Source of the DNA: an uncultured Eubacterium sp.
Lineage (GTDB): Bacteria; Bacillota; Clostridia; Lachnospirales; Lachnospiraceae
Length of the DNA: 64,000 bases
Reading direction: 5' to 3'
Assembly (NCBI GenBank): GCA_947088865.1
Contig: CAMUHY010000001.1
Span: forward strand, 1 to 64,000
The notes beneath the pieces are model-generated. The model searched no databases. It was not told the origin of the DNA and saw only the letters and a list, made by a program, of their open reading frames with translations. Each line of letters begins with the position of its first letter. The first letter of the stretch is position 1. Positions 16,008 through 53,640 of this stretch are shown in pieces. The translations under genes were made by a program, and so were the position numbers.

Positions 16008-17435
16008 TTACGTCTCCATCATTAACAAAATACTTAAACAAAACACATCATCTTTTAAATCAATAACAATATCTCCCAAATATTTTTGTGCAACCTTTTG
16101 TATATTGAGCAATCCATAGCCATGGCTTTGACTGTAATCGTTTTTTTGCTTTTTTGACGTTATTGGCAGCCCGCTTTCTGTATTCCACTGCAAACTTCCT
16201 GTAAAATAATTGCTTACCTCTATCATATAAGCATTGTTTCTGCGGTATGATACAATTGCTATATAAGCTGTTTCACTTTTTGATGTATATTCCAACGCAT
16301 TTTGCAGTGCATTATTTAAAATCACACTGATATCAAAGACATTTAGACTTGAATCCATAGGATAATGAAAATCCTTATCAAAACGGATTTTCTTCTTGTC
16401 TGCCTTGCGTTGCATTTCCTGCAAAATCACATCCGTCACCGGATTCCCGCTGTTTATATTGCCAGTCACTTCCGAGAGCGCAGCTTTTAATTCCATACTG
16501 TATGCAATCGCTTCTTTTTGCTTATTTCCAGTATAAAGCCTTTCCAATGTCATAATATGATTGGTCATATCATGTCGAATACACCGAATCCCCTGATATA
16601 AATTTTCTACTTGCTCAATATGTTCTTTGATATGTTCCATCTGTATTGCAAGCAATTCATTTTGCAGTTTTTCTTCCTGACCTGCCTTAATTTTTTGATA
16701 CAGCACAATAACAACAACAATAACAACAATAGTTATAATATAATAAAACAACGACAAAATATCATATATTTCTGAGATTTTTTTTAGTTCTGCTATATAA
16801 AAATTGCGATAATACCATATCAATTCATAACCTACTACCCCCATAAATGAAGGCACAATCAATATAAACAACTCTTTTTTTGACATTTTAGCAGCTTTAC
16901 AGACATAATTTTTCAAAACACATCGTATTCCAATAATTGTAAATAAAAACTCTAACGCTAAATACAATAGACATACCACAATATATAAAGCAAACGACCT
17001 ATTGGGATGCGTTCTCATATAATTGGTATTTAATATAAAATCATATAGATTATCATACAAAATTTCTGCCATTGCCGATGTAAACCAACGCAGTGAAAAA
17101 AAGGTGACAGCAATAAAAATTTTTTGCTCATAATTTCTTTGTTCTGCCCAGCACATTATAAGAAATGGAACAAAAACGCCTACGCTATAAGCCATAAATG
17201 TACTAAAAAGTATTGGTATCTCATAAAGGATTACCATTGTCAAAATATATGTTATACCAACACAACATGTCCATTTTTTCTTTTTTGTTTTGCCAAAAGG
17301 ATATGATAAAGGATACTCTGAGGAAATCTCCATAAATGGTTTTGCAAAATAATAAAAACAATATCCCATAATAAAAATTTCCACAATAGGCACCATATGA
17401 GATATAATTGTCCAATGTATCTCATTCAATGCCAT
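16008..17435 (-). CDS. GHKL-family sensor histidine kinase (AgrC/NatK type)
   Basis: A 475-residue membrane kinase. The N-terminal half (about 1-240) has six or so hydrophobic segments, as in the sensor part of AgrC-like proteins. A linker with IRCIRHDMTNHIMTLERLY follows; the His is the probable phosphorylation site. The GHKL ATPase domain has NNALQNALEY (N box) and GYGLLNIQKVAQ (G box). It starts 14 nt inside the end of the response-regulator gene, so the pair is translationally coupled. No AgrB/AgrD peptide genes are present; the signal is unknown. Confidence 0.93.
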   Translation of the reverse strand: MALNEIHWTIISHMVPIVEIFIMGYCFYYFAKPFMEISSEYPLSYPFGKTKKKKWTCCVGITYILTMVILYEIPILFSTFMAYSVGVFVPFLIMCWAEQRNYEQKIFIAVTFFSLRWFTSAMAEILYDNLYDFILNTNYMRTHPNRSFALYIVVCLLYLALEFLFTIIGIRCVLKNYVCKAAKMSKKELFILIVPSFMGVVGYELIWYYRNFYIAELKKISEIYDILSLFYYIITIVVIVVVIVLYQKIKAGQEEKLQNELLAIQMEHIKEHIEQVENLYQGIRCIRHDMTNHIMTLERLYTGNKQKEAIAYSMELKAALSEVTGNINSGNPVTDVILQEMQRKADKKKIRFDKDFHYPMDSSLNVFDISVILNNALQNALEYTSKSETAYIAIVSYRRNNAYMIEVSNYFTGSLQWNTESGLPITSKKQKNDYSQSHGYGLLNIQKVAQKYLGDIVIDLKDDVFCLSILLMMET

Positions 17436-18156
17436 TTTTTCTTTCCTTTCTCTGATTATACCTCAAATAGGATTTTACAAATTCCTTATAATTTTGCTTT
17501 GCCATAAGCGCCTGTCCTTTTTCCAAGTAAATCGTTGTGGCATCATATTTTCTAATATATTTAAAATTTACAAGATATGCTCGGTGCGGACGATAAAAAT
17601 CATCACCTGCTTTAGCCTGCAATTCTTTCATTTTTCCATAATATTCTATATCCATATGAGTCGTGTGCAAAATCACTTTTCGGTCAAACACTTCTGCATA
17701 GATAACATCTTCCAAATCAACAGCAATATGCTTACCGCCTGTTGTTACAAGTAGACTAGGCACATCTTTTTTGGAATTTGTAATTTTTCTATTTTTTCTA
17801 TCTTGCAATTCCTTTACTGCATTTCTTAAAATTTCTTCAAATTTAACATCATCAAAAGGTTTCACTAAATAATGAAACGCGCCTACATCAAAAGCCTGAA
17901 ATACATATTCTTCAAAAGCTGTTATAAAAATAAGAATAGTATTTTTATGGCTTTTGCGAAATTCTCTGGCTGTTTCCATTCCATTTTTACCTTCCATCTG
18001 AATATCTAACAGTAAAATATCAGGACAACTATTAGACAAAAGCAATTCTTCTCCAGACAAATAAAGCAATACATTTGATTTTGGATATAATCTTTTTACT
18101 TTTTCTTCAAGCATATTGCTGATTTCTTGTTCATCATCACATATTGCTATCTGCAT
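17422..18156 (-). CDS. LytTR-family response regulator
   Basis: A 244-residue transcription regulator. The receiver domain starts MQIAICDDEQEIS and carries the phospho-acceptor in DILLLDIQMEGKNGME; FITAFEEYVFQAFDVGAFHYLVKPF follows the usual pattern. The LytTR DNA-binding domain spans about residues 140-238 (GKHIAVDLEDVIYAE, FYRPHRAYLVNFKYI). The start at 18156 has GGAAG 8 nt upstream; the frame is open 22 codons further up, but those are not receiver sequence. It is co-transcribed with the GHKL kinase. The repeat pair at 18225-18254 suggests autoregulation. Confidence 0.95.
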   Translation of the reverse strand: MQIAICDDEQEISNMLEEKVKRLYPKSNVLLYLSGEELLLSNSCPDILLLDIQMEGKNGMETAREFRKSHKNTILIFITAFEEYVFQAFDVGAFHYLVKPFDDVKFEEILRNAVKELQDRKNRKITNSKKDVPSLLVTTGGKHIAVDLEDVIYAEVFDRKVILHTTHMDIEYYGKMKELQAKAGDDFYRPHRAYLVNFKYIRKYDATTIYLEKGQALMAKQNYKEFVKSYLRYNQRKERKNGIE

Positions 18157-18186
18157 ACGTTCACTTCCTTTACCGTTCTTCAGCTT

Positions 18187-18254
18187 ATTATATCGAAATA
18201 TCAATACAATTGCGATAACCACATGTTGTAAAATAAACTTTTTTTGTTGTAAAA
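18187..18254 (-). promoter_or_regulatory. Putative LytTR-controlled promoter of the LytTR/GHKL pair
   Basis: Two identical 9-bp repeats, GTTGTAAAA at 18225-18233 and 18246-18254, start 21 bp apart. A minus-strand TATAAT (18187-18192) has no good -35 at normal spacing, as expected for an activator-dependent promoter. The start codon lies 31 bp further on. Confidence 0.55.
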
Positions 18255-18272
18255 CATTTATTATTTCTTTTC

Positions 18273-18301
18273 TTGAATGATTAAAAATGCCGTGTTATAC
18301 T
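18273..18301 (+). promoter_or_regulatory. Probable promoter of the leader/CD3324/Vat-like unit
   Basis: TTGAAT (18273-18278), a 17-bp spacer and TATACT (18296-18301). A start near 18308 would give a leader of about 170 nt before the CD3324-type ATG. It is divergent from the LytTR promoter. Confidence 0.5.
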
Positions 18302-18334
18302 TTTCATATATAAAATACGTTGGTGGTGAATTTA

Positions 18335-18424
18335 ATGTGTATCAATAAGAAAAAGAAAAACAAAGCTTCGCTCCATGCAAAGCCAGTGCAGCGACACTTG
18401 CATGGAGTACTGATTAGTCGCTGA
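18335..18424 (+). CDS. Putative leader peptide (29 residues)
   Basis: A short frame, ATG 18335 to TGA 18424, preceded by GGTGG about 8 nt upstream. The peptide is strongly basic: it opens MCINKKKKNK and ends KPVQRHLHGVLISR. From memory that ending resembles leader peptides before tet(M)-type and other ribosome-protection or resistance genes; this needs a search. The frame covers both arms of competing RNA folds, one of which hides the downstream Shine-Dalgarno. That is the arrangement of translational attenuators such as those of erm and cat genes. Inferred function: ribosome movement or stalling here sets expression of the next gene(s). Confidence 0.5.
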   Translation: MCINKKKKNKASLHAKPVQRHLHGVLISR

Positions 18425-18475
18425 CTTATCACAACTGGCTTTGCTGCTTGACCTATCAATCAAGGAGGAAAGCTT
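18363..18475 (+). promoter_or_regulatory. Putative translational attenuator with competing RNA folds
   Basis: Fold A: AAGCTT (18363-18368) and CTCC (18371-18374) pair with AAGCTT (18470-18475) and GGAG (18464-18467), covering the Shine-Dalgarno of the CD3324-type gene. Inside it GCAAAGCCAGT (18377-18387) pairs with ACTGGCTTTGC (18434-18444), and CAGCGAC (18389-18395) with GTCGCTG (18417-18423). Fold B: CTCCATGCAA (18371-18380) pairs with TTGCATGGAG (18398-18407), which breaks fold A and frees the site. Confidence 0.55.
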
Positions 18476-18478
18476 ACT

Positions 18479-18742
18479 ATGAAATATATCAATGCAAATG
18501 AGATTCTCCCCAATATATTGGTTGAAGAACTCCAACAATATATTCAGGCAGGATATCTTTATATCCCAGCTAAGGCAACACAACATAAATCTTGGGGCGA
18601 ATTATCGGGCTATCGAAAAGAGCTTAAAAAACGCAATGAACAAATTATTGCACAATATCGACAAGGTATGACTATTCAAGACCTTGCTGCTTCTTATCAT
18701 CTTTCGATATATGCTATCAGAAAAATAATATATCAGCCATAA
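18479..18742 (+). CDS. CD3324-family protein (small helix-turn-helix protein)
   Basis: An 87-residue cytoplasmic protein. The pattern MKYINANEILP...LQQYIQAGYLYIPAK...KSWGELSGYRKELKKRNEQI...YHLSIYAIRKII matches the CD3324 family, common in clostridia. The C-terminal half (about 55-87) looks like a Mor/sigma-type helix-turn-helix (GMTIQDLAASYHLSIYAIRKI), so DNA binding is likely, but the role is unknown. AAGGAGG lies 10 nt before the ATG and can be sequestered by the leader fold. A strong hairpin follows at 18748, then a Vat-like acetyltransferase gene on the same strand, so the two may share the leader-controlled transcript by read-through. Confidence 0.8.
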   Translation: MKYINANEILPNILVEELQQYIQAGYLYIPAKATQHKSWGELSGYRKELKKRNEQIIAQYRQGMTIQDLAASYHLSIYAIRKIIYQP

Positions 18743-18747
18743 TAATA

Positions 18748-18820
18748 AAACTGCTGCAAAAGAAAATTACACTTGATATTGTTTTATCAAATATTATATT
18801 CTTTGCAGCAGTTTCTTTTT
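18748..18820 (+). terminator. Terminator between the CD3324-type and Vat-like genes
   Basis: A perfect 13-bp stem, AAACTGCTGCAAA (18748-18760) / TTTGCAGCAGTTT (18802-18814), with an inner TTGATA/TATCAA stem and a following CTTTTT. It probably ends most transcripts; read-through would reach the acetyltransferase gene. Confidence 0.8.
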
Positions 18821-18913
18821 CTACTTATTATATCTGTATCATTTTGTATATTGAAAAACATTCTGTCAATCAATACAATAATTCTATACTATAATAAACA
18901 GGAGGCTTACAAA

Positions 18914-19552
18914 ATGGCTGATTCAATGAAACGATACCCACGTACAAAAGATACTTATACAATTTATCTTAAAAATGTAATTACTAATCCCAATATTGAA
19001 ATTGGTGATTATACCATGTATCATGATTTTTTAAATGACCCTACAACATTTGAAAAAAACAATGTATTATACCATTATCCCATTAATCATGATAAACTTA
19101 TTATTGGAAAATTTTGCTCCATCGCTTGCGGCGCAAAATTTCTTTTTAACAGCGCCAATCACGCAAAGACTTCTCTAAGCACATATCCATTTCCATTATT
19201 CTTTGAAGAATGGGAACTTGATAAAAACAATGTAACCGAAAGCTGGGATAACAAAGGAAATATTATCATAGGCAATGATGTATGGATTGGTTTTGAAGCT
19301 GTTATTCTTGCAGGTGTTACCATTGGCGACGGAGCAATTATTGGAACTCGTGCTGTGGTCACTAAAGATGTACCTCCTTATACCATTGTGGGCGGCGTTC
19401 CTGCAAAACCAATACGAAAACGTTTTGATAATGCTACTATATCAGAACTTCTTAAAATTAAATGGTGGGATTGGTCAGAGGAAAAAATAGCCCAAAATAT
19501 CCAAGCAATCAAAACGGGCAATATCGACTTACTATCTATGGAAAAACCATAA
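18914..19552 (+). CDS. Vat/CatB-like xenobiotic acetyltransferase
   Basis: A 212-residue left-handed beta-helix acyltransferase using acetyl-CoA, active in the cytoplasm. The pattern [76 protein letters not shown] and [24 protein letters not shown] follows the Vat (streptogramin A) and CatB families. The catalytic His is in SANHAK. Hexapeptide repeats run from about residue 110 to 165. The start is the ATG at 18914 with AGGAGG 8 nt upstream; the 47 codons before it are hydrophobic and overlap the terminator. True antibiotic resistance is not proven, since the family includes housekeeping enzymes. Confidence 0.88.
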
Positions 19553-19654
19553 TTATCTTTTTTATACAACTTGATGTTTTTCAAATCCCCACCGTGCAAA
19601 TGGAATCATAAATAATTTTATATTCATTCACCAATTAATCTCCTTTATTTTACA

Positions 19655-20626
19655 TCATCTTTCAATACATCCAAGCGCTGTTAAATTTGACAATTCCTCT
19701 TCTAAATCTTTTCCTTGTGTAGTAAGAAAATCCCCCGCTATCAACGCATTGATACCTGCTTCATATCCTGCATATTCGTCTTTTCCCATAGCATTTTGCC
19801 GTCCTCCTGCAAAGCATAACGTTTTATCTGGCATTATTATCCGAAACATTGCAATGGTGCGAAGTATTTGGTCGATACTTAAAAGAGGCTGATGTTCTAA
19901 TCTTGTGCCTGCAATGGGATTTAAAATATTGATTGGAACACAATCTACATTTAATTCTTTCAGGGCATATGCCATCTCTATGCGCTGCTGCGGTGTTTCA
20001 CCCATTGATATAATACCGCCGCTGCAAATTTCCATACCTGCTGCACGCGCTATATGGATTGTTTCGAGTTTATCAGCATAACTGTGTGTAGAACATATCT
20101 GTGAAAAAAAACTAGGAGCTGTCTCAATATTGTGATGATACCGAGTAACGCCGCATTGAACCAAATCCTGCGCCCTTTGCTTGTCAAGACTTCCTAACGA
20201 TGCACACAGTCCAATACTAGTTTCATTATGCAGTCGCTGATAAATTTGTACAATATGCGCAAACTCCAAATCACTTAATCGCTCGCCGCTTGTCACTAAA
20301 CTAAATCGTTCCACCCCATATTTTTGCAATTTTACAGCATGTCCTACAATTTCATCGGAACAAATATCTCCAATCTTAACAATATGAACATCACAGTTAT
20401 GATGTACAGATTGTGCGCAAAAAGCACAATCCCCGCTACATGTCCCAACTTTTGCCGCATAAATCGCACACATTTTCACTTGATTGCCGCAATGTTTTTT
20501 TGTAATTGCCTTTGCTGCACAAATAAGCTCTTTTAATGGTATGTCATTTGATTCCATCATCATCAACGCTTCATCTCTTGTAGGAATATACCCTTCTGCT
20601 ATTTGGTCTAAAATTTGTTTTTTCAT
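19655..20626 (-). CDS. bioB: Biotin synthase
   Basis: Radical-SAM enzyme that inserts sulfur into dethiobiotin. The 323 residues include GTCSGDCAFCAQS with Cys63, Cys67 and Cys70 for the 4Fe-4S/SAM cluster, ERFSLVTSGERLSD, and NILNPIAGTRLE near the C-terminal part. The normally YNHN block reads YHHNIETAPSFF, a mild departure. AGGAG precedes the ATG. Other biotin genes (bioA, bioD, bioF) are absent from the window, so dethiobiotin must come from elsewhere in the genome or from scavenging. A BirA-type operator overlaps the promoter. It converges with the Vat-like gene. Confidence 0.93.
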   Translation of the reverse strand: MKKQILDQIAEGYIPTRDEALMMMESNDIPLKELICAAKAITKKHCGNQVKMCAIYAAKVGTCSGDCAFCAQSVHHNCDVHIVKIGDICSDEIVGHAVKLQKYGVERFSLVTSGERLSDLEFAHIVQIYQRLHNETSIGLCASLGSLDKQRAQDLVQCGVTRYHHNIETAPSFFSQICSTHSYADKLETIHIARAAGMEICSGGIISMGETPQQRIEMAYALKELNVDCVPINILNPIAGTRLEHQPLLSIDQILRTIAMFRIIMPDKTLCFAGGRQNAMGKDEYAGYEAGINALIAGDFLTTQGKDLEEELSNLTALGCIER

Positions 20627-53287: not shown

Positions 53288-53640
53288 CAAAAAAGTCTTT
53301 CGCCCCTGACATGCGTATGTCAAGAGACGAAAGACGAAAAGTCTCACGCGGTACCACTCTTATTCACGATAGATGAATCGTGCCCTCACTGAATACGGAC
53401 AATCCTGTCTTAAATCATTTTATCTTAGACTATTTGACTTAAAACTATTTGTCTTATATTCTGTCCATTATAACGGTTGGCTTCCGTCTATGCCTAATCT
53501 TAATGTACAAATATTGCACCATTAATTTCAGATAGCAGCTCCAAGACGAGTTCAATGTCTTCCTTCTATTGCCTCACACCACCCGACAACTCTCTGAAAC
53601 CAGTCAACATCTACTATTTCTCTTCATAGCCTTTTTTATA
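53288..53640 (-). promoter_or_regulatory. T-box leader (leucine) with terminator
   Basis: On the minus strand the T-box core TGGTACCGCG (53347-53356) is preceded by AAGAG and followed by a terminator: GTCTTTCG / CGAAAGAC arms at 53328-53335 and 53295-53302, then TTTTTT. Stem I is upstream (about 53640-53480). In GAACTC the codon CTC (Leu) at 53548-53550 is a good specifier candidate, matching the leuA gene downstream. Uncharged tRNA-Leu would pair there and at TGGT to allow read-through. Confidence 0.9.

Follow-up and report, generated by a model that had tools for sequence, protein, structure and literature searches.

The window analysed here, a stretch of DNA of 64,000 nucleotides, contains a small gene of the CD3324 family whose start is preceded by a short open reading frame and by RNA segments that can pair in more than one way, and the question raised by this locus is whether a ribosome reading the short frame decides if the CD3324 gene is translated. 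Taking the proposal as a whole, we consider it probable that the leader is a ribosome-read translational attenuator in which either of two guards can cover the ribosome-binding site (features in Table 1). A sequence-only reading of this DNA had placed a promoter ahead of the leader, a short open reading frame (18335-18424) with switch arms inside it and, next, a gene for a small HTH protein. The reading frame is real and its codons overlap the arms, and the next gene does code for a protein of the CD3324 family NF040785 (109.7 bits, with a curated cut-off of 65), whose HTH-like matches in the profile search are weak and all under the cut-off. A promoter-like match was also found (TTGAAT-17-TATACT, 18273-18301), by consensus only and weak by itself, since a consensus scan of 18150-19700 gave 13 such sites against 9.2 in shuffled sequences. 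The leader is adjoined by a divergent pair coding for a LytTR response regulator and a GHKL-type histidine kinase (16008-18222, minus strand), and the window also holds a T-box leader at 53320-53636 on the minus strand (Rfam RF00230, 109.5 bits).

Table 1. Features of the leader and its neighbouring genes, with positions in the window, strand and basis of each assignment.
Feature	Position	Strand	Basis
Promoter-like TTGAAT-17-TATACT, TG before the -10	18273..18301	+	consensus match only, 9/12
Leader ORF (uORF), 29 codons, MCINKKKKNKASLHAKPVQRHLHGVLISR	18335..18424	+	ORF list; codon-level conservation
CTCC guard arm of the sequence-only reading, AAGCTTCGCTCC	18363..18374	+	pairs with the ribosome-binding region once H3 is formed
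s1, 5' strand of H1, CTCCATGCAA	18371..18380	+	H1 covariation
s1b, 5' strand of H3, GCAAAGCCAG	18377..18386	+	covariation in the H3 core
s2, 5' strand of H2, AGCGAC	18390..18395	+	covariation
s3, 3' strand of H1, TTGCATGGAG	18398..18407	+	covariation
s4, 3' strand of H2, GTCGCT	18417..18422	+	covariation
s5, switch strand, CTGGCTTTGC: 3' strand of H3 or anti-Shine-Dalgarno strand (H4)	18435..18444	+	pairing tests, covariation, forced folds
H5 hairpin, CTTGA 18447-18451 : TCAAG 18460-18464, immediately 5' of the ribosome-binding site	18447..18464	+	covariation
Ribosome-binding site AAGGAGG (18462-18468) and adjoining AAAGCT, partner of s5	18462..18474	+	folding model
CD3324-family small HTH-like protein, 87 aa	18479..18742	+	NF040785
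Terminator-like long stem (18747-18814), then T-rich tail	18747..18822	+	read from the sequence
Box kept 3' of CD3324, overlapping the -35 of the next gene; putative operator	18820..18854	+	comparison of loci
Promoter-like TTGAAA-17-TACAAT of the acetyltransferase gene	18851..18879	+	consensus match only
Vat-like hexapeptide acetyltransferase, 212 aa	18914..19552	+	Vat model, 1khr

The folding energy of the leader is mildly unusual (z -2.0; 7 of 200 shuffles were equally good), and the pairings themselves were examined in an alignment of 98 matches from 100 given sources, the window leader included, which contains 97 distinct leaders. In helices H1, H2 and H5 and the six-pair core of H3, 96.1% of the cells are paired (87.9% in shuffles), two-sided changes number 216 in the distinct leaders (48.6 in shuffles) and 21 of the 27 pairs show such changes (12.9 in shuffles), with none of 500 shuffles equalling the observed value in any measure. 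As H2, H3 and H5 formed part of the search model, the alignment is biased toward these three; H1 (18371-18380 : 18398-18407) was absent from the model and is 98.7% paired, with two-sided changes in 7 of its 10 pairs and 39 two-sided cells against 6.8 in shuffles. Two-sided changes were additionally observed in all six pairs of H2 (18390-18395 : 18417-18422), in four of the six core pairs of H3 (18377-18386 : 18435-18444; core, 18381-18386 : 18435-18440) and in four of the five pairs of H5 (18447-18451 : 18460-18464). Counts made on 20 leaders agree with the larger alignment, except for the number of pair types, which was often matched by shuffles. Because the genomes are related, all these shuffle tests overstate significance, and permutation likewise leaves relatedness in. 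Covariation, which had been suggested as a check on the stems, is strong in four helices across the 97 distinct leaders. The arms that had been described before are all present; those of H2, H3, H5 and H4 (18437-18442 : 18469-18474, beside the ribosome-binding site), including s5, the main anti-Shine-Dalgarno strand, had been missed. H1 crosses H2 and H3, so that either a pseudoknot or mutual exclusion must be assumed, and a GCAA is contested between H1 and the full ten-pair H3.

Two strands compete for the ribosome-binding site. The s5 strand pairs better with the ribosome-binding region of its own leader than with those of others (9.31 versus 7.93 in 94 of the 98 rows, 0 of 5000 permutations; 9.23 versus 7.86 in 29 less redundant rows, 1 of 5000), and the same holds for the CTCC arm (8.34 versus 6.99 in 94 of the 98 rows, 0 of 5000; 6 of 5000 in the 29 less redundant rows). 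When H1 is forced, s5 takes the site, with a median share of 0.66 in 91 leaders and 0.83 in the window, and when H3 is forced the CTCC arm takes it; this second guard varies between leaders, as its median share is 0.29 in the same number of leaders (91 of the 98 rows) and 0.68 in the window. The sequence-only reading had AAGCTT (18363-18368) and CTCC (18371-18374) pair with GGAG (18464-18467) and AAGCTT (18470-18475): the pairing of a CTCC arm with the site region holds, but the exact AAGCTT/AAGCTT match occurs in 1 of the 98 rows, that of the window itself, and was given up as a family feature in favour of the broader arm. It had also described two exclusive folds, one of which would free the site. 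Both folds are real; however, forcing the CTCCATGCAA:TTGCATGGAG fold (H1) in the window leaves an opening cost of 6.8 kcal/mol, because s5 takes over, and in the model neither of the two frees the ribosome-binding site. Covariation, pairing tests and forced folds all point to mutually exclusive folds that decide access to this site. Among 141 non-redundant CD3324 leaders of every kind, 79 have a switch strand able to pair well with the site and also with upstream sequence (p ≤ 0.1), where about 14 would be expected, and 62 do not; seven of the eight CD3324 genes that lie directly behind one same other gene fail this test (L291 passes).

The effect of a ribosome on the guards was modelled by folding only the RNA from 16 nucleotides past the P site, the footprint assumed, with pseudoknots and the RNA upstream of the ribosome excluded. 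The site of the window costs 8.0 kcal/mol to open without a ribosome and 7.8-8.8 kcal/mol with the P site at codons 1-7; the cost is 4.4-4.9 at codons 8-10, 7.8 at codon 11 and 10.1-10.5 at codons 12-29, and a ribosome just beyond the stop codon also lowers it (5.0 and 4.5 kcal/mol). The predicted releasing position is therefore a P site at about the Asn codon 9 (18359-18361). In 70 leaders picked by their first arm from 169 unique CD3324 genes, the median cost is 7.5 kcal/mol at codon -6 relative to the hairpin, 3.8 at -4 and 8.2 from -1 to +1; in 59 of them the lowest cost between codons -6 and -1 undercuts the codon 0 to 6 median by more than 2 kcal/mol, a mark that the other 11 miss. The minimum stands at -4 in all six leaders of Cfr genes and all five of transporter genes. 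In those of Lsa genes the dip is weak (5.1 to 4.3); of 14 such leaders, six are lowest at -4, two at -3 and six at -15. Even at the best codon, opening still takes about 4 kcal/mol (for the window, another calculation gives 2.35), so the site becomes easier to open rather than free. A stall position predicted to release the site is found by computation, and only weakly for Lsa leaders.

These results can be arranged as follows. With H1 formed, s5 (18435-18444) would be free to pair with the ribosome-binding site, and with H3 formed the CTCC arm (18363-18374) would be free to do so. A ribosome passing through the hairpin region would leave s5 to hide the site, and once it is gone the leader would return to a guarded fold. 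A ribosome held with its P site at about codon 9, four codons 5' of the hairpin, would instead mask the CTCC arm and, at the same time, leave s1b free, keeping s5 in H3; only this hold would make the site easier to open and allow CD3324 to be translated. The hold may be a stall caused by drugs that bind the peptidyl-transferase centre (Cfr, Lsa and Vat share this drug class), and CD3324 might then act on the neighbouring gene through the conserved box. We infer the drug class of the inducer from the genes that accompany the leader, and the sequence comparisons support a role for the leader as a sensor of ribosome-targeting drugs.

The leader is present once in its own genome. With 18300-18485 as blastn query, a match was obtained in 25 of 299 genomes of its family, its own included, and the leader stands before a CD3324-type start in 23 of the 26 loci taken in; the other three (L023-L025) were taken to be matches by chance and left out. 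Scanning named genomes with a pattern gave at least 120 stretches, at least 36 of them with the third arm, and among the third-arm matches listed 34 of 36 lead, by reading, directly to the start of CD3324 (the exceptions being L108 and L143); the pattern was built from CD3324 leaders, so this is uninformative about other genes. With a covariance model the leader turned up in 6 genomes, its own among them, out of 341 searched in the class; of 194 genomes from a single Clostridium-like family, 40 had it, with 51 matches in total. At all 28 loci inspected among these 51 matches a gene was assigned behind the leader by reading translations: Cfr in six, an Lsa-type ABC-F protein in 13, a transporter in six (the frame at L334 is short) and CD3324 in three. 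Six of the 28 proteins were checked against NCBIfam. Two Cfr proteins scored 686 and 642 bits (cut-off 468) and one Lsa protein 771 bits (cut-off 750), while three transporters had an H+ antiporter model as best match, under the cut-off, with 80-116 bits for Mef models. Six genomes have a second leader match at a distance of 1643-1648 bases from the one before Cfr; in genome G874, Lsa-type and Cfr genes follow the two leaders. The search among Firmicutes relatives that had been recommended thus uncovered a conserved leader class, and the link to ribosome-drug resistance is stronger than first drawn, since this class also stands before Cfr and Lsa genes. In plasmid and phage collections, the leader DNA gave 37 matches, all weak and all short of 80% query coverage; the Cfr leader had no plasmid match, and for the Lsa leader 107 plasmid records aligned with 23% of its length, the 20 matches listed lying at the start of lsa(E).

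That the switch controls the acetyltransferase gene directly is an idea that we have dropped as doubtful: a terminator-like stem, the box and a promoter-like site (18851-18879) intervene, and on this ground we consider the leader to control CD3324 and not evidently the Vat-like gene. A scan of 18150-19700 for terminator-like sites with loops of 3-8 bases found none on the plus strand; the loop of the 18747-18822 stem is longer than that. The enzyme itself is Vat-like, as proposed, with 242 bits, under the curated Vat cut-off of 300; it is related to solved Vat and xenobiotic acetyltransferases, its closest PDB relative being the streptogramin A acetyltransferase 1khr (E 7e-52). At another locus, L002, the Vat-like gene is apparently in two pieces.

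The box was found 3' of CD3324 in 23 loci (26 by a pattern built from such loci, three being judged spurious) and starts 32-48 nucleotides past the CD3324 stop in 19 of the 23, and 77 past it in the window. It carries repeated GTAT half-sites (window 18820-18854 and 22 further loci), often before Vat-like genes or genes of a family marked by MCTRFVYRG. In 16 genomes, all seven copies with at most one mismatch lie at CD3324 loci, the box sites total 24 against 4 for the reversed pattern, and five genomes have no site despite carrying the leader; a box search of these 16 genomes did not find a genome-wide CD3324 regulon. From this distribution, CD3324 presumably acts on the box at 18820-18854. 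The neighbours of the 169 unique CD3324 genes cluster into Vat-like proteins (32), MCTRFVYRG proteins (19), DUF1062 proteins (13), FusB/EF-G-binding proteins (4) and ABC-F proteins (4), of which one DUF1062, two FusB-like and two ABC-F members were profile-tested; of these two ABC-F proteins, one scored above and one just below the cut-off. The MCTRFVYRG family (L012 and 18 further loci) had no Pfam or NCBIfam match in the one member tested, L012, and RNHCP-domain proteins lie 3' of CD3324 genes at L185 (by profile) and L257 (by reading).

Other CD3324 genes have leaders of different sequence. Type II has uORFs such as MRRYVINA and MTTPAKSA, and type III such as MRRRYVNAQ and MTRRYVIAQ, mostly of 8-9 codons, and in both the site is most hidden when the ribosome is near the end. 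Without a ribosome, at codon -5 and at the stop, the median opening cost is 5.5, 4.9 and 8.7 kcal/mol in 24 type II leaders (the uORF was not found in seven of these rows), and 7.2, 6.0 and 8.8, respectively, in seven type III leaders. Although they differ in sequence from the leader of the window (type I), both follow the same logic. In a rough sorting, 63 of the 169 CD3324 leaders fit no type, some of these being variants of types I and II. By reading, the DUF1062 genes behind CD3324 at L168, L174, L181 and L191 have a type II uORF leader of their own. A further architecture, with strong switch-strand scores, precedes CD3324 at L208, L211, L217, L218, L219 and L221; at L217 and L219, reading shows one motif at an early position and a second copy of it at the ribosome-binding site, the complement lying between the two.

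The types II and III lend some weight to an alternative in which the leader senses translation stress in general, so that any slowed reading of it, through a block of initiation, amino-acid shortage or many drugs, would switch CD3324 on with no specificity for drug or peptide. These leaders need only that the ribosome stays short of the end, and the FusB-like neighbours, directed against a drug of elongation factor G, would also fit. In type I, however, the site is hidden without a ribosome too, the cost drops at one narrow position and the residues at this position are kept at the codon level, so we regard a general stress sensor as unlikely, although it is an alternative to be taken seriously.

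Codon-level conservation of the leader peptide is the only sign that the leader ORF is translated (65 distinct CD3324 leaders). Codon -4 before the hairpin, to which codon 9 of the window leader (18359-18361, Asn) corresponds, is Asn in 56 of the 65 (30 AAC and 26 AAT), and codon -5 is Lys in 31 or Arg in 21 (52 together); position -4 is codon 9 of the 12-codon leaders and codon 5 of the 8-codon ones. This asparagine might indicate an amino-acid attenuator, in which a ribosome awaiting Asn-tRNA at codon 9 frees the site, and in fact Asn in the A site (P site at -5) also lowers the cost of opening, to 4.9. The codon at -4 is, however, Thr in Cfr leaders and Thr or Ala in Lsa leaders, and no amino-acid gene appears among the downstream genes read; in a version with lysine, most Lys codons come too early for the lower cost. 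Regulation by asparagine or lysine is accordingly improbable. The same difference between Asn and Thr or Ala at the predicted stall means that a single common stall motif is not established.

The strong crossing helices could also belong to a ligand-binding riboswitch or to a structured pseudoknot RNA, with an ORF that plays no part. Nonetheless, an in-frame start lies 36 nucleotides 5' of the hairpin in most CD3324, Cfr and Lsa leaders, the M-C and K/R-N codons are retained and third positions are the most variable (diversity of 0.39, 0.37 and 0.56 at codon positions 1, 2 and 3 over codons -6 to -3 of the CD3324 leaders). Moreover, Rfam had no family for the leader (window and six loci), the only match from the six loci (E 0.14) lying in the terminator-like stem on the other strand; we find this explanation very improbable.

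Leaders of the tet(M) type carry a transcription terminator. The sequence-only reading had pointed to a likeness to them at the peptide end only, and this idea can be given practically no credit: upstream DNA was shown for 12 of 19 tet ribosomal-protection loci, and there ORFs such as MLCMPMVMHKNPSDKSIYHWDFYALLGF resemble the leader in neither peptide nor arms, tblastn of the window peptide gave no match in plasmid and phage collections, and a plus-strand scan of 18150-19700, for short loops only, found no such terminator. The peptide end itself, RHLHGVLISR, is not kept in other leaders, many of which stop after AKPV or finish in CME, whereas the ORF is kept at the codon level.

We thus retain the ribosome-read attenuator. 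Its presence before at least four unrelated families (Cfr methylase, Lsa ABC-F protein, Mef-like transporter and CD3324 regulator) might further mean, and we say this tentatively, that a distributed and commonly triggered response to ribosome drugs exists in Clostridia; CD3324 would be its transcription-factor arm, a counterpart of WhiB7 in Firmicutes, and the further leader types before other CD3324/DUF1062 genes would extend the response across the phylum. Cfr confers resistance to phenicols, lincosamides, oxazolidinones, pleuromutilins and streptogramin A, as stated in the part of PMC4862533 available. The model predicts that cfr, lsa and a little-studied regulator family of Clostridia are under inducible control and names the exact codon of the stall, and the way in which such genes are switched on affects whether a carrier appears susceptible in a test. 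Additionally, the leader could be used as a search key and as a reporter of ribosome drugs.

Leader-peptide attenuators of resistance genes are already well known; what we rate as new is a shared module whose helices cross and whose guards alternate, found on resistance genes and on a regulator. A literature search in which subscription journals were mostly outside the coverage brought up no publication that treats CD3324 or this class of leader. In the translational attenuators of erm and cat genes, a leader peptide, a stall and alternative hairpins act together. As in these, a short leader overlaps the switch arms and one fold hides the ribosome-binding site; unlike in them, the switch strand is here split between an upstream strand and the site, helices cross, there are two guards and the target in the window is a regulator gene. 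In actinobacteria, the uORF attenuator of whiB7 controls a regulator of intrinsic resistance. The present leader would likewise govern a putative regulator and not a resistance enzyme, although the regulator family and the leader are unrelated to those of whiB7.

Among published descriptions, an outline of the ermC attenuator is given in the available part of PMC10219788, and that of PMC12121999 describes a uORF of the E. coli topAI-yjhQ operon that senses several ribosome drugs; there too, a uORF stall governs the downstream genes, but topAI-yjhQ is itself a toxin-antitoxin operon. Judging from the portion of PMC10201436 at hand (Obana et al. 2023), the nearest studied case found is C. difficile cplR, an ABC-F gene induced by retapamulin and lincomycin. 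The two have in common ABC-F targets in Clostridia, a uORF, an anti-Shine-Dalgarno element and translational attenuation. In that portion, however, the cplR uORF is Met-Arg-Ile and acts together with transcription termination, whereas the leaders described here have about 12-35 residues and no terminator is seen within that of the window; the LsaA uORF is given there as MAGN, while the Lsa leaders found here are mostly MxNKDTxLTHDN-like. The leader peptides consequently fall outside the short uORFs of cplR and LsaA as that text gives them (MR[I/M] or MAGN).
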